Shown here piece after piece: positions 9,310-41,953 of a DNA stretch of 64,000 nucleotides. Made by a program: the position numbers and the translations under genes. How positions within the stretch are numbered: the first letter of the stretch is position 1; every line of letters starts with the position of its first letter. A model generated the notes under the pieces. The model ran no database searches and was not told the DNA's origin. It was given only the letters and a program-made list of their open reading frames with translations. The stretch comes from Sulfurihydrogenibium subterraneum DSM 15120. Lineage in GTDB: Bacteria; Aquificota; Aquificia; Aquificales; Hydrogenothermaceae. Location: contig NZ_JHUV01000008.1 in assembly GCF_000619805.1 (NCBI RefSeq), forward strand, positions 310,001-374,000. Direction: 5' to 3'.

Positions 9310-10074
9310 ATGAAAAGGTTTATACTTTCTATCTTATCTTTTAGTATAGTTTCTATTGCTGGTGAACAAGCGACTTTACAAAAAAATACAGAAGTACATC
9401 ACTGGAGTTATGAAGGAGAAAATGGACCAGAAAACTGGGCAAAATTAAATCCAGAATACTTTTGGTGTAGTTTAAAAAATCAATCCCCTGTGGATATTTC
9501 GGATAAATATAAAGTTCACGCAAAAATAGAAAAACTAAATATAAAATACGATAAGGCAGTTAATCCAGAAATAGTAAATAACGGTCATACCATTCAAGTA
9601 AATGTTTTAGAGGATTTTAAACTAAACATTAGAGGTAAAGAGTATCATTTAAAACAGTTTCACTTTCATACTCCAAGTGAACATACTGTAAATGGTAAGT
9701 ATTATCCATTAGAAATGCATTTAGTTCATAAAGATAAAGATGGAAATATAGCAGTTATTGGGGTTTTCTTTAAAGAAGGAAAACCAAATCCAGAGTTAGA
9801 TAAAGTGTTCAAAAATGCTTCAAAAGAGGAAGGTAGTAAAGTTTTTGATGGAAGTATAAATCTAAATGCCTTACTACCAGTTGTTAAAAATTACTATACA
9901 TACTCAGGGTCTTTAACAACTCCTCCTTGTACAGAAGGAGTTTTATGGATTGTTTTAAAACAAACTATTACCGCCTCTAACCAACAGATAGATTTATTTA
10001 AATCTATTATGAAACATCATAATAATAGACCTACTCAACCTATAAACAGCAGGTATATTTTAGAGAATAATTAA
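9310..10074 (+). CDS. secreted alpha-carbonic anhydrase
   Basis: It hydrates CO2 to bicarbonate in the periplasm and probably helps supply inorganic carbon for autotrophy. It has 254 residues with a signal peptide of about 18-20 residues (FILSILSFSIVSIAG). The mature domain begins HHWSYEGENGPENW. The zinc ligands are the histidines of LKQFHFHTPSEH and EMHLVH; SLTTPPCTEGVLW and NRPTQPINSR are family signatures. C53 (FWCSL) and C203 (PPCTEG) probably form the conserved disulfide. From memory it is nearly identical to the thermostable SspCA of Sulfurihydrogenibium sp. YO3AOP1 and clearly different from SazCA of S. azorense. The ribosome-binding site is TGGAGGTC. The 3' end overlaps bioB by 4 nt (convergent). 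Confidence 0.96.
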   Translation: MKRFILSILSFSIVSIAGEQATLQKNTEVHHWSYEGENGPENWAKLNPEYFWCSLKNQSPVDISDKYKVHAKIEKLNIKYDKAVNPEIVNNGHTIQVNVLEDFKLNIRGKEYHLKQFHFHTPSEHTVNGKYYPLEMHLVHKDKDGNIAVIGVFFKEGKPNPELDKVFKNASKEEGSKVFDGSINLNALLPVVKNYYTYSGSLTTPPCTEGVLWIVLKQTITASNQQIDLFKSIMKHHNNRPTQPINSRYILENN

Positions 10075-11084
10075 GTATTTAAAGTATTTTTGTTAAAGTT
10101 CCCTCTATTCTTTACAAGATGCCTGCCGAGTCTTCTTGCCATTTCTTCGTCTTTTCCTGGTTCTCTTCCTGCTCTGGTTAGGTATCCACCTGCCATTAAA
10201 CAGTTTGCCACTTCAAAAGCCATATCGTGATACTCTTTAAGGTTTGCTTCCCTTCCTCCACACAATCTTATTTCTGCATTTGGATTAAATAGCCTAAACA
10301 GGGCAACTATTTTCAAACACCTTAAAGGAGTTAGATTATGAGTATATCCAAGTGGTGTCCCTGGGATAGGCATTAAAAAGTTTAGAGGTATAGAATCAAC
10401 GTTTAAATCTCTGTAAGTCATTGCCAAGTCTACAATATCCTCATCAGATTCTCCCATTCCAAATATTCCACCGCTACAGGTTGAAAGTCCAACCTTTTGC
10501 ACTTTTTTTATTGTTTCGTACCTTTCTTTCCAAGTGTGAGTTGTTACAATATTTTTAAAGAATTTTTCCGACGTTTCAAGGTTGTGGTTTATTCTGTCAA
10601 CACCAGCTTCTTTTAAAAGTTTTAAATCTTCCTCATCAACAGTACCTAAAGAACAACATACTTTAACAGGATAAGTTTTGTTTATCTCTTTAACAGCTTC
10701 TGCTATTTTTGCTACTTCTTCTTTTGTTGCCCTTCTACCACTTACCACTATACAGTATCTATTTGCATTTATCATAACTGCCTTTTCTGCACCTTCAAGC
10801 ATCTGGTCTTTACTTACAAGAGAGTAAGCATTTATAGGAGTTTTAAAGTGAGAAGACTGGGCACAGAAAGAACAGTCTTCACTACAAGCTCCATTTTTTG
10901 CATTTATAAGACTACAAAACTCCATCTGATTCTTAAAAACAGCCTCTCTAACTTTAGCCGCTTCTTCAACCAAGTCCATCACATACTGGTCATCTATGGA
11001 TAATATCTTTAAACCATCTTCCTTTGTTAACTTTTCACCATTTAAAACCCTTTCCGCAAGACCTTTTATAAAATTCAATTCCAT
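10071..11084 (-). CDS. bioB: biotin synthase
   Basis: BioB is a radical-SAM enzyme that inserts sulfur into dethiobiotin to make biotin. It has 337 residues. The [4Fe-4S]-SAM motif is NGACSEDCSFCAQSSHF (CxxxCxxC) near residues 65-80. Other conserved segments are YCIVVSGRRAT, DRINHNLETSEKF, TCSGGIFGMGES (with the Cys that helps hold the [2Fe-2S] cluster) and EIRLCGGREANL. The start is ATG at 11084 with GGAGAAG upstream. Biotin is needed here by the carboxylase encoded at 32970-34316. Confidence 0.97.
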   Translation of the reverse strand: MELNFIKGLAERVLNGEKLTKEDGLKILSIDDQYVMDLVEEAAKVREAVFKNQMEFCSLINAKNGACSEDCSFCAQSSHFKTPINAYSLVSKDQMLEGAEKAVMINANRYCIVVSGRRATKEEVAKIAEAVKEINKTYPVKVCCSLGTVDEEDLKLLKEAGVDRINHNLETSEKFFKNIVTTHTWKERYETIKKVQKVGLSTCSGGIFGMGESDEDIVDLAMTYRDLNVDSIPLNFLMPIPGTPLGYTHNLTPLRCLKIVALFRLFNPNAEIRLCGGREANLKEYHDMAFEVANCLMAGGYLTRAGREPGKDEEMARRLGRHLVKNRGNFNKNTLNT

Positions 11085-38499: not shown

Positions 38500-39555
38500 T
38501 TGAAAAAAGTTGTAGTTGGACTAAGTGGTGGAGTAGACAGCTCCACCGCTGCATATATTTTAAAGCAGCAAGGATACGAAGTAATAGGTATAACGTTAAA
38601 ACTGTCAGAAGTTGACCAGTGTAGTCTTGATAAACAGGTATGTTGTTCTACAAAAGATATTTTAGATGCAAAAAAAGTGGCTTCTTTTCTTGGTATTTCT
38701 CACTATGTAATAGACTGGCAAGAAATATTTAAAGAAAAAGTTATAGATTACTTTATAAAAGGATACCAATCTGGACTTACACCCAATCCCTGTAGTATAT
38801 GCAACAGAGAAGTAAAAACTGGACTTTTAGCAAAGTATGCAAAGAAAATATTAAAATCTGACTTTTTTGCAACTGGACATTATGTAAAAACTGATTTTTT
38901 AGACGGAGAAAAAGTTATTAAAAGAGGTAAAGACTTATCTAAAGACCAGTCTTACTTTATGGCTCTTGTAGAAAAAGAAGTTATAGATATGCTTATTTTT
39001 CCTTTGGGAAATCTTACAAAAGAGGAAGTTAGAAAAATTGCACGTGAAAATAAAATTCCTGTAAGTCAAAAATCAGAGAGTTTTGAGATATGTTTTACAG
39101 CTGGAAAAACACCAGAAGAGTACTTTAAAAGTATAGGAGTCCCTTTAAAAACTGGTGATATAGTTCACGTATCTGGAAAAATATTAGGGAAACATAAAGG
39201 TTTAGAAGCCTACACTATTGGACAAAGAAAAGGCTTAGGAATTAGATGGAAAGAACCTCTCTATGTTATAGATAAAGACCCTATAAAAAATACAATAATA
39301 GTGGGAGAAAAGGAATATCTTTTAACAGATAGTGCTACAGCAAAAAACTTTAATTTTTTGGTTCCTATACAAAAATGGAAAAACATTACCGTCCAAGGAA
39401 GGTACAGACAAAAACCGATAGAAGTTAAAGAATACTACTTCGACGGAGATACTCTTAAAGTAATATTCAAAGAAAAACAACAAAAGATGGCTCCAGGTCA
39501 GATACTTGCTGTTTATCAAGATGATATTCTCTTAGGCGGTGGAGTTATTACATAA
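38500..39555 (+). CDS. mnmA: tRNA-specific 2-thiouridylase MnmA
   Basis: MnmA thiolates U34 of tRNA-Lys, -Glu and -Gln. It has 351 residues from the TTG at 38500, chosen because GGTGG lies at a proper distance; an adjacent TTG at 38497 is also possible. The PP-loop is VVGLSGGVDSSTAAYIL. Catalytic cysteines are in NPCSICNREVKTG and FEICFTAG; GHYVKTD, KDQSYFMALV and GQRKGLGI are conserved. It is probably the source of the s2U half of mnm5s2U made with MnmE (14920-16263). Confidence 0.96.
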   Translation: MKKVVVGLSGGVDSSTAAYILKQQGYEVIGITLKLSEVDQCSLDKQVCCSTKDILDAKKVASFLGISHYVIDWQEIFKEKVIDYFIKGYQSGLTPNPCSICNREVKTGLLAKYAKKILKSDFFATGHYVKTDFLDGEKVIKRGKDLSKDQSYFMALVEKEVIDMLIFPLGNLTKEEVRKIARENKIPVSQKSESFEICFTAGKTPEEYFKSIGVPLKTGDIVHVSGKILGKHKGLEAYTIGQRKGLGIRWKEPLYVIDKDPIKNTIIVGEKEYLLTDSATAKNFNFLVPIQKWKNITVQGRYRQKPIEVKEYYFDGDTLKVIFKEKQQKMAPGQILAVYQDDILLGGGVIT

Positions 39556-39557
39556 AT

Positions 39558-39573
39558 TGTTCCGTATAGGACA
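39558..39573. repeat. 16-bp dyad, copy 1 of 3 (possible activator site)
   Basis: TGTTCCGTATAGGACA lies 2 bp after the mnmA stop. It is an imperfect inverted repeat and shares TGTTC-N6-GGACA with the two copies downstream. Its centre is about 210 bp before the predicted sigma-54-type start. Confidence 0.6.
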
Positions 39574-39622
39574 TCTTTATACTTTAATTTTTATCCTCTA
39601 AATAAAAAAATTAACATATTTT

Positions 39623-39638
39623 TGTTCCATTTAGGACA
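39623..39638. repeat. 16-bp dyad, copy 2 of 3 (possible activator site)
   Basis: TGTTCCATTTAGGACA differs from copy 1 at three central bases and lies 65 bp after it (start to start). Its centre is about 147 bp before the predicted start. Confidence 0.6.
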
Positions 39639-39644
39639 ACAATC

Positions 39645-39660
39645 TGTTCAGATTTGGACA
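39645..39660. repeat. 16-bp dyad, copy 3 of 3 (possible activator site)
   Basis: TGTTCAGATTTGGACA starts 22 bp after copy 2, about two helical turns, so both would lie on the same DNA face. Its centre is about 125 bp before the predicted start. Confidence 0.58.
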
Positions 39661-39749
39661 TTCATTCACCCTTAAATTTACCTGTAATCTCTATATCAAT
39701 ATATTAATTATATTTTTTATAACTAAATATTAAAATTATGTAAAACATA

Positions 39750-39766
39750 TTGGCATATTTTTTGAT
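39750..39766 (+). promoter_or_regulatory. possible sigma-54 (-24/-12) promoter for the DsrE-porin unit
   Basis: TTGGCATATTTTTTGAT places GG (39752-39753) and GA (39764-39765) 12 bp apart, as in the -24 GG and -12 GC elements. It matches TGGCA...TTG but has GA instead of GC at -12. Transcription would begin near 39777, and the gene's ribosome-binding site GGAGG follows. The rest of the 259-bp gap is AT-rich with no other feature. Confidence 0.45.
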
Positions 39767-39814
39767 TAATAATTTACTTGAATTATAAAAAAAACATTTT
39801 GCAGGAGGTACAAA

Positions 39815-40318
39815 ATGAACAGAAGAAAAATGATTCTGTTATCTTTTCTAAGTTCTATTCCATTATTCAGTAAAAGTAGTTTTTCCCTTCCCTCAGATAT
39901 ATCGCCCACCAGTGTTCAAAAAGACACAGATTTTGCAACCGTTTACCACTGTGATTTTCCTCAAGAAGCTCGATTCAACCAAATGATGAATTATATCACA
40001 AACCAACTTAATTATTTTAATGCCGATCCAACTAAAATCAAAATAATTGTAGTTTGTATAGGTCCAGGAGTAAAGTTTCTAATGAAAACACTACTTAATT
40101 CTCCTTGGGAAAAAGAAGAAATAGACACAAAAAAACACATAAGTAAAGCCAAAGATTTAACCACTTATGGTGTAGAATTCTGGATATGTAACAATACTAT
40201 AAAAAACTTTAATCTAAAGAAAGAAGATTTTCCTGACTTTTGCAAAGTTGTACCTGCTGGAATTGTTGCAATTACAGAATTGCAATCAAAAGGTTTTGCT
40301 TATATAAAAGCCCAATAA
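39815..40318 (+). CDS. secreted DsrE/DsrF-like family protein
   Basis: It has 167 residues. The N-terminus MNRRKMILLSFLSSIPLFS carries a twin arginine before a hydrophobic stretch, so Tat or Sec export is likely. The mature part resembles periplasmic DsrE-like proteins: IKIIVVCIGPGVKFL, VEFWICNNTI, FCKVVPAGIVAITELQSKGFAYIKA. Three Cys are candidates for sulfur handling (in VVCIG, WICNN, DFCKV). DsrE proteins transfer sulfane sulfur in cytoplasmic pathways; the role of the exported branch is not known to me. The porin follows after 26 bp. Confidence 0.78.
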   Translation: MNRRKMILLSFLSSIPLFSKSSFSLPSDISPTSVQKDTDFATVYHCDFPQEARFNQMMNYITNQLNYFNADPTKIKIIVVCIGPGVKFLMKTLLNSPWEKEEIDTKKHISKAKDLTTYGVEFWICNNTIKNFNLKKEDFPDFCKVVPAGIVAITELQSKGFAYIKAQ

Positions 40319-40344
40319 AAAAATAATTGATTAGGAGGATTAGA

Positions 40345-41916
40345 ATGAGAAAAATTGGTTTAAAATCAACAATTATTTTAGGATCGGCTATTTTGGGAAT
40401 TTTTACTCAAGATTCAAGCGCTATGAGACTTACCACTTCAAGTCAAGACACTTATATGGATTTTAACTTACTGACTCAGATTTGGATCAGACATCAAGAT
40501 TTATCTGATGATCAAAACAGAGCGAATTTCATTAACGCCCAAAATAAAGATGATATCTTTATAAGAAGATGGAGATTTAGAGTTTTTGGAAGCGTAAATC
40601 CTTGGTTCAAGGTAAACTTTGTCTTAAGAGAAAACGATACTTCAAGAGATCCTTATGATCAACCTTTTGGTGGTACTCCCTCAAGTAAACAAAGGAGTAA
40701 TAAAGTAGAAATTCATGAATTTGACGCAATCTTCGGCTTGAATAAGTTACTGGAAATAAATAAAACTGTTAGATTTGATGTTCATTTAGGATATCCAAGG
40801 ATACCTTTTGGACGTGAGCAATCAATGAGAGTTTACGACAATATAGATTTAGACAGAACATTTTCTACTTTAAGACTTACTCAGCTTGGTCTTTCGGATG
40901 TTACAGGAAGAAGTACAGGAGGTTATGTACATGTTGGAAAAACTATAGAAAAAGATATCGGCTCTTTCAAGGGATTACATTTAGATTTATTCTTAGGAGC
41001 ATTTACAGGATATTCGTCTACAAAAGCTCCTTGGGAAGAAACACAAACTTCATATCTTTCAACATCAAATGACTCAAATGCTTATTGGAACTGTACATCT
41101 ATTGGAGGTATGTTCAACTGTACTCTAAAACCTCAATATAAAAGCCAATTGAGAGGAAATCCAACTAACAGTCTTTTGTATACTATTAGAGGAACTTTCC
41201 AGATAGGAGATATGGAGGGAAGACCTGAAATCTTTAACTGGTTGTACAGAGAAACTTATTTAGGGAAAAGGAAAGGTTTAACTATTGGTGTTAACTACGG
41301 CTTTCAAAATAAAATATCTCAAGATAGAATAACAGATACTCAAGGTATAGAAGATACTTCTTCTAATGCAAAAGGAACTTTGGGACTAGGTTCTTCACAG
41401 ATTAGAATTCCTTATTTACTTTTACCAAATCCAATTCAAAATCCTCAATTGATTGGAAATAAAGTAGATATGAGATCATACGGAATAGACCTAGGCTTTC
41501 ACTACAAAAATTTATCTTTTAATACAGAATATTTAGAAGTTGATTTTAAAAATGTAGCAGTTGACCCTACTAATCTTGCCAGAAAAGAAACATTTAAAAA
41601 CAAAGGATACTACTTTAAAGCAGGATACATATTCATACCAGAAAATAAAATCAATCTTTTCGAGCCTTATATAAGCTATTCTGTATACAATCCTGACATT
41701 AAAAAAGTAGGTACAAACTATTATGGAGACTTTGTAGTTTTATCATCAACCCAAAATCCAGGTGGAGTAGGTAAAATAAAAACAACAGGAATTGGTTTTA
41801 ATTACTATTATAAAGATGAAAGATTTAGATGGACGTTAGAGTATACTAAAAATAAAGAATCTAATTACGACATTAAAAATGATGCAGTTACTTTAATGTT
41901 CCAATTCATTTTTTAA
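40345..41916 (+). CDS. outer-membrane beta-barrel porin
   Basis: This 523-residue protein has a signal peptide (STIILGSAILGIFTQDSSA) and an extended beta pattern rich in aromatic residues, ending in Phe (VTLMFQFIF), the usual outer-membrane insertion signature. Segments such as IRRWRFRVFGSVNPWFKVNF and AGYIFIPENKINLFEPYISY look like barrel strands of the phosphate-selective porin O/P type. A loop holds two Cys (NCTSIGGMFNC) that may form a disulfide. ATG 40345 has AGGAGG; an in-frame TTG at 40327 is less likely. The substrate is unknown. Confidence 0.8.
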   Translation: MRKIGLKSTIILGSAILGIFTQDSSAMRLTTSSQDTYMDFNLLTQIWIRHQDLSDDQNRANFINAQNKDDIFIRRWRFRVFGSVNPWFKVNFVLRENDTSRDPYDQPFGGTPSSKQRSNKVEIHEFDAIFGLNKLLEINKTVRFDVHLGYPRIPFGREQSMRVYDNIDLDRTFSTLRLTQLGLSDVTGRSTGGYVHVGKTIEKDIGSFKGLHLDLFLGAFTGYSSTKAPWEETQTSYLSTSNDSNAYWNCTSIGGMFNCTLKPQYKSQLRGNPTNSLLYTIRGTFQIGDMEGRPEIFNWLYRETYLGKRKGLTIGVNYGFQNKISQDRITDTQGIEDTSSNAKGTLGLGSSQIRIPYLLLPNPIQNPQLIGNKVDMRSYGIDLGFHYKNLSFNTEYLEVDFKNVAVDPTNLARKETFKNKGYYFKAGYIFIPENKINLFEPYISYSVYNPDIKKVGTNYYGDFVVLSSTQNPGGVGKIKTTGIGFNYYYKDERFRWTLEYTKNKESNYDIKNDAVTLMFQFIF

Positions 41917-41924
41917 ATAAACAT

Positions 41925-41953
41925 AACCCTCTCCTTTTATGGAGAGGGTTTTT
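41925..41953 (+). terminator. terminator after the porin gene
   Basis: A perfect 10-bp stem AACCCTCTCC / GGAGAGGGTT with loop TTTTAT is followed by TTTATC. It lies between convergent genes, 4 bp from the RND stop codon, so it may serve both strands. Confidence 0.85.

Follow-up and report, generated by a model that had tools for sequence, protein, structure and literature searches.

A two-gene operon of Sulfurihydrogenibium subterraneum, encoding a DsrE/DsrF-like protein and an outer-membrane porin-like protein, is very probably controlled by sigma-54 and a TspR-type activator of the NtrC family: three predicted enhancer sites lie upstream of it, and the activator is encoded near the sox genes. 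The operon lies in the window, the 64,000-nucleotide stretch analysed here (G000:C8:310001-374000, where G000 denotes this genome of the genus Sulfurihydrogenibium), and tspR is found on a different contig. The original prediction of control by an NtrC-type activator and sigma-54 is well supported by the presence of rpoN, of NtrC-type activator genes, and of conserved dyads.

The DsrE-Porin Operon

All features placed within the window are on the forward strand. The DsrE/DsrF-like gene (39815–40318) follows a Shine-Dalgarno sequence, AGGAGG (39803–39808), and its product has an N-terminal segment resembling an export signal. Cysteine C125 is invariant across 11 aligned relatives; this one invariant Cys suggests that the protein, presumably exported, has a sulfur-carrying role. 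The porin-like protein has 523 amino acids when read from the ATG at 40345 (40345–41916); the TTG at 40327 called by the ORF tool is an unlikely start. It is a distant paralogue of the porin encoded in the sox operon. A rho-independent terminator followed by a T-run (41925–41950) closes the operon. The upstream neighbour, an mnmA-type tRNA thiouridylase gene (38500–39555), stops 2 bp before the first dyad and is not thought to be part of the switch. No close orthologue of the DsrE-porin operon was found in the six other Sulfurihydrogenibium genomes, so the predicted site cannot be traced by synteny within the genus.

Dyads Upstream of the Operon

The 259-bp gap between the mnmA-type and DsrE genes holds three dyads, TGTTCCGTATAGGACA (39558–39573), TGTTCCATTTAGGACA (39623–39638), and TGTTCAGATTTGGACA (39645–39660), all of the form TGTTC-N6-GGACA, all predicted TspR-type enhancer sites, and all exactly where they were first reported. 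Their offsets of 65 and 22 bp correspond to 6.2 and 2.1 helical turns. The dyad centres are about 210, 145, and 123 bp upstream of the inferred transcription start (~39776) and 249, 184, and 162 bp upstream of the DsrE ATG; the originally quoted distance of about 125–210 bp before the start therefore refers to the transcription start, not the ATG, and fits when measured in that way.

In 200,000 simulations of the gap (first-order Markov), the relaxed pattern TGTYC-N6-GRACA occurred once in 45 and twice in none. A single dyad with one mismatch would be expected by chance, but the idea that the three are chance palindromes in an AT-rich gap is already refuted by the simulations and by the conservation of the dyads elsewhere, and we give it practically no credence. 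The strict pattern has four sites in the 1.61-Mb genome, three before the DsrE gene and one before soxX, compared with none in a reversed control; the genome search proposed at the outset thus finds it again only before soxX. The relaxed pattern occurs at seven places: three in the DsrE gap, two before soxX, one before a small-RNA locus described below, and one intragenic. Dyads with one mismatch were not enriched genome-wide (91 vs. 128 in the reversed control), and for this reason exact sites alone were used. On a position weight matrix built with these sites included, the three dyads score 18.5–21.1 (20.3 for the first and 21.1 for the second) vs. 24.8 for the published upstream activator sequence (UAS) of TspR.

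Predicted Sigma-54 Promoter Element and rpoN

A predicted sigma-54 promoter, TTGGCATATTTTTTGAT, lies at 39750–39766, as originally described, and sigma-54 boxes stand at a similar distance in several orthologues. The -24 element, TTGGCAT, matches the consensus, and the -12 element departs from it in reading TTGA instead of TTGC (GA for GC). This TTGA variant is common to the sox promoters of G011, G018, and G030, and a 17-mer identical to TTGGCATATTTTTTGAT precedes the small-RNA locus of G007. The genome has one copy of rpoN (Sigma54_DBD match, E 1.5e-59), the gene whose presence had been set as a check, and encodes six sigma-54 activators, the TspR-type protein and five others.

The combined pattern of a -24 box with a dyad at the expected distance gave 3 + 1 matches in G000 (two distance ranges). 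Reversed controls gave none in G000 and few over all genomes. One of the G000 matches is on contig C1, where neither sox nor DsrE genes nor the small RNA are nearby. These controls bear on a further explanation, in which the -24/-12 match would be a coincidence and the dyads would serve a repressor or a sigma-70-type regulator as operators. At 39677–39705 there is indeed a weak match to a sigma-70 site (9 of 12), but the region has fewer such sites than its shuffled versions (10 vs. 12.0), DsrE orthologues and paralogues alike are preceded by a sigma-54 box at a comparable distance, and box plus dyad is nearly absent from the reversed controls, all of which makes this explanation highly improbable.

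Identity of the Motif

The original prediction did not recognise the motif, a point that no longer stands: judged by sequence, the dyads are variants of the published TspR UAS for sox genes, TGTCCCAAATGGGACA, a palindrome of the type TGTCCC-N4-GGGACA (PMC6335251). In Acidithiobacillus caldus, phosphorylated TspR binds TGTCCCAAATGGGACA and starts transcription of sox-II, for which thiosulfate is the proposed signal (PMC6335251); TspS/TspR control of sox-II is sigma-54-dependent and of the two-component kind (Li et al., 2017, as reviewed in PMC6335251). The exact 16-mer or its reverse complement stands before sox genes in G003, G009, G013, G028, and G033. Our system shares with that of A. caldus a near-identical UAS palindrome, a predicted sigma-54 promoter, and genes for an NtrC-type regulator and a kinase near sox. 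It differs in several respects: the host is a member of the Aquificota, the putative target operon encodes DsrE and a porin and lies far from sox, three dyads precede it where two are usual, the -12 element is TTGA, and a gene for a phosphonate-type binding protein adjoins the kinase gene.

The sox Operon, TspR, and TspS

In G000, soxX is preceded by two dyads and by a good match to a sigma-54 promoter, TTGGCATAAAAGTTGCG. These dyads are 21 bp apart (21–22 bp in the genus), compared with 22 bp between the second and third dyads of the DsrE gap. The operon runs soxX-thioredoxin-like-soxY-soxZ-soxA-soxB-DUF302-porin-DsrE and on; SoxX, SoxY, SoxA, and SoxB score above NCBIfam curated cut-offs. 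About 4.5 kb upstream of the sox dyads lie genes for a receiver-AAA+-HTH_8 (NtrC-type) regulator, here called TspR, for a histidine kinase, and for a binding protein of the phosphonate type. The proposed check for activator genes accordingly finds NtrC-type activators, one of them near sox, and no operon besides sox shares the matching dyads.

In the TspS-like kinase, the second membrane segment is followed by a cysteine-rich stretch. The kinase and adjoining binding-protein genes can be seen at L046:7821-9389 (-) and 9386-10195 (-); together with this periplasmic protein, the kinase may belong to a three-part sensor. At the same locus (L046:4562-5398, minus strand), a transposase-like ORF stands between two portions (286 and 169 aa) of a second flavocytochrome c-like gene, which is located between tspR and soxX.

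The recognition helix of TspR, SRKQLRTKMKN, does not vary among the TspR orthologues read, 24 besides that of G000, and none of the genome's five further sigma-54 activators has it. This comparison matters for the possibility that the dyads are bound not by TspR but by one of those five, such as a protein resembling NifA. The UAS of NifA (a GAF-AAA+-HTH protein) is TGT-N10-ACA, placed as an enhancer and sigma-54-dependent; the three dyads fit this core, share its outer TGT/ACA spacing and, as predicted, its enhancer position and sigma-54 dependence, and the genome offers five candidates. However, the recognition helices of those five differ, and on reading the protein sequences no NifA-like activator was recognised among the six; one of them has two PAS-like segments at its N-terminus but does not resemble NifA. 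The inner bases conserved in the dyads (C and G pairs) also point to TspR, as do their sox context and the fact that 23 of 24 relatives have dyads upstream of sox, in many cases next to the TspR gene. We therefore regard binding by another activator as improbable, and retain TspR as the predicted regulator.

Conservation in Related Genomes

Of 60 related genomes, 25 have a TspR orthologue (62–97% identity), which is broken in one of them. At least one dyad is present in 23 of the 24 complete soxX upstream regions and at least two in 19, vs. 2 of 520 shuffled regions. Dyad spacing before soxX in these relatives is 21–23 or 32–35 bp, that is, two or three helical turns. A sigma-54 box was scored upstream of soxX in 20 of 24 regions; in three of the remaining four (G000, G001, and G004) the box sits just inside the called start. 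The comparison of upstream regions in relatives, proposed at the outset, thus finds conserved dyads both at sox and at the DsrE-porin pairs of the family considered below.

In two genomes, G002 and G015, tspR is missing or broken and the small-RNA locus still has its dyads, which suggests recent losses of the gene. In G015 TspR is reduced to 35 N-terminal residues. G002 has no TspR, a TnpB-like element lies between its sigma-54 sox promoter and soxX (ORFs at L284:3-650 and L064:2106-3539), and the neighbouring flavoprotein gene is a short remnant; treating G002 as a natural experiment with neither TspR nor dyads was dropped, as the locus is a transposon-disrupted relic. A scan of GTDB genomes for double dyads gave many unrelated tandem palindromes among the matches listed, and we kept only those loci whose surroundings include sox genes, a TspR-like regulator, or a sigma-54 element. 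Three loci in Desulfobulbaceae and Nitrospiraceae (L099, L153, and L207) have double dyads near TspR-like regulators (~49–51% identity) and kinases, with no sox genes in the stretch examined.

DsrE-Porin Relatives in Two Families

Three other DsrE-porin pairs were found in the family Hydrogenothermaceae (G007, G024, and G027), each with two dyads and a sigma-54-like box. Their DsrE proteins are 35–40% identical to that of the window, and these pairs may form a separate lineage. Closer relatives (42–52% identity, tblastn) belong to a second family, presumably the Aquificaceae. The idea that the window's DsrE gene was acquired recently from this second family was considered and set aside: the tree places the window gene beside the family, not inside it, with weak support.

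In five second-family orthologues (L018, L019, L020, L022, and L024), a sigma-54-like box lies between about -40 and -70. In these five, the gene of a different NtrC-type activator ends just upstream, and the dyads are of the TGCCA/TGRCA type. The recognition helix of these activators reads PLRT[FL]YR[KR]L vs. SRKQLRTKMKN in TspR. With the sigma-54 box kept and both the helix and the dyads different, the five examined have the promoter type in common with the operon of the window, but not the activator.

A Candidate Small RNA

A third putative target, outside the window at locus L300, is a candidate small RNA of ~80 nt (G000:C8:285331-285407, minus strand) preceded by dyads of the same kind and a sigma-54 box. 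Its promoter dyad, at G000:C8:285493, comes directly after an O-methyltransferase gene, and no plausible reading frame was found after the promoter. Within the ~80-nt segment, C-rich stretches (GCUCCUGCUGC; CCUCCU) do not vary, and compensatory base changes preserve a terminator stem; the unpaired anti-Shine-Dalgarno segments in G000 are GCUCCUGCUGC and ACCUCCUCC. These features suggest a small RNA acting on translation. The gene 3' of the candidate differs between genomes, which makes it unlikely to be a leader.

A covariance model found one strong copy (84–100 bits) in each of seven Sulfurihydrogenibium genomes, including the six used to build the model, and promoter and position place the candidate also in G007, G008, G010, G012, G015, G017, and G019. 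In G004 no dyad is close to the candidate, and a perfect one (TGTCCCAAATGGGACA, L287:336) lies ~1 kb upstream, possibly a displaced enhancer. Rfam gave no match for any of the three promoter loci (small RNA, sox, and DsrE), and the RNA has apparently not been described before.

In the LuxO-Qrr system, sigma-54-controlled small RNAs are under an NtrC-type regulator. The present locus is similar in combining such a regulator and a sigma-54 promoter with a short, terminator-ended candidate RNA; unlike Qrr, the candidate is unrelated in sequence, stands in a sulfur context, is present once in each genome of the genus, and lacks an Rfam match. PMC11407668 describes LuxO as homologous to NtrC and its circuit as including small RNAs.

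A Possible Thiosulfate-Oxidation Switch

From the sites, the promoter-like element, rpoN, the TspR-TspS genes, and the conservation seen in the sequence, we infer a signal, binding, looping, activation, and protein functions as follows. Thiosulfate or a related sulfur species would be sensed by the kinase TspS, perhaps with the adjoining phosphonate-type binding protein. Phosphorylated TspR would then bind the TGTYC-N6-GRACA dyads, placed on about one face of the helix, and loop over ~120–210 bp, so that sigma-54 polymerase at 39750 could form an open complex. The exported DsrE protein and the porin would thus be made together with the Sox enzymes.

As a switch of the DsrE-porin operon this is of a known kind (TspR/sigma-54); what is most novel is the candidate small RNA uncovered in the same regulon. 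A broader proposal, which we hold about equally likely to be right or wrong, is that TspR and sigma-54 govern a multi-target regulon in Hydrogenothermaceae, comprising sox, exported DsrE-porin pairs, and an undescribed small RNA that would repress translation of other mRNAs through its anti-Shine-Dalgarno segments during thiosulfate use. Related DsrE-porin operons in two families appear to combine a sigma-54 promoter with activators and enhancer dyads that differ between the families. The analysis gives a sequence definition of a possible thiosulfate-oxidation switch in a deep-branching bacterial phylum, and tying the DsrE-porin pair to this switch predicts for it a role in the traffic of thiosulfate or sulfur across the cell envelope.
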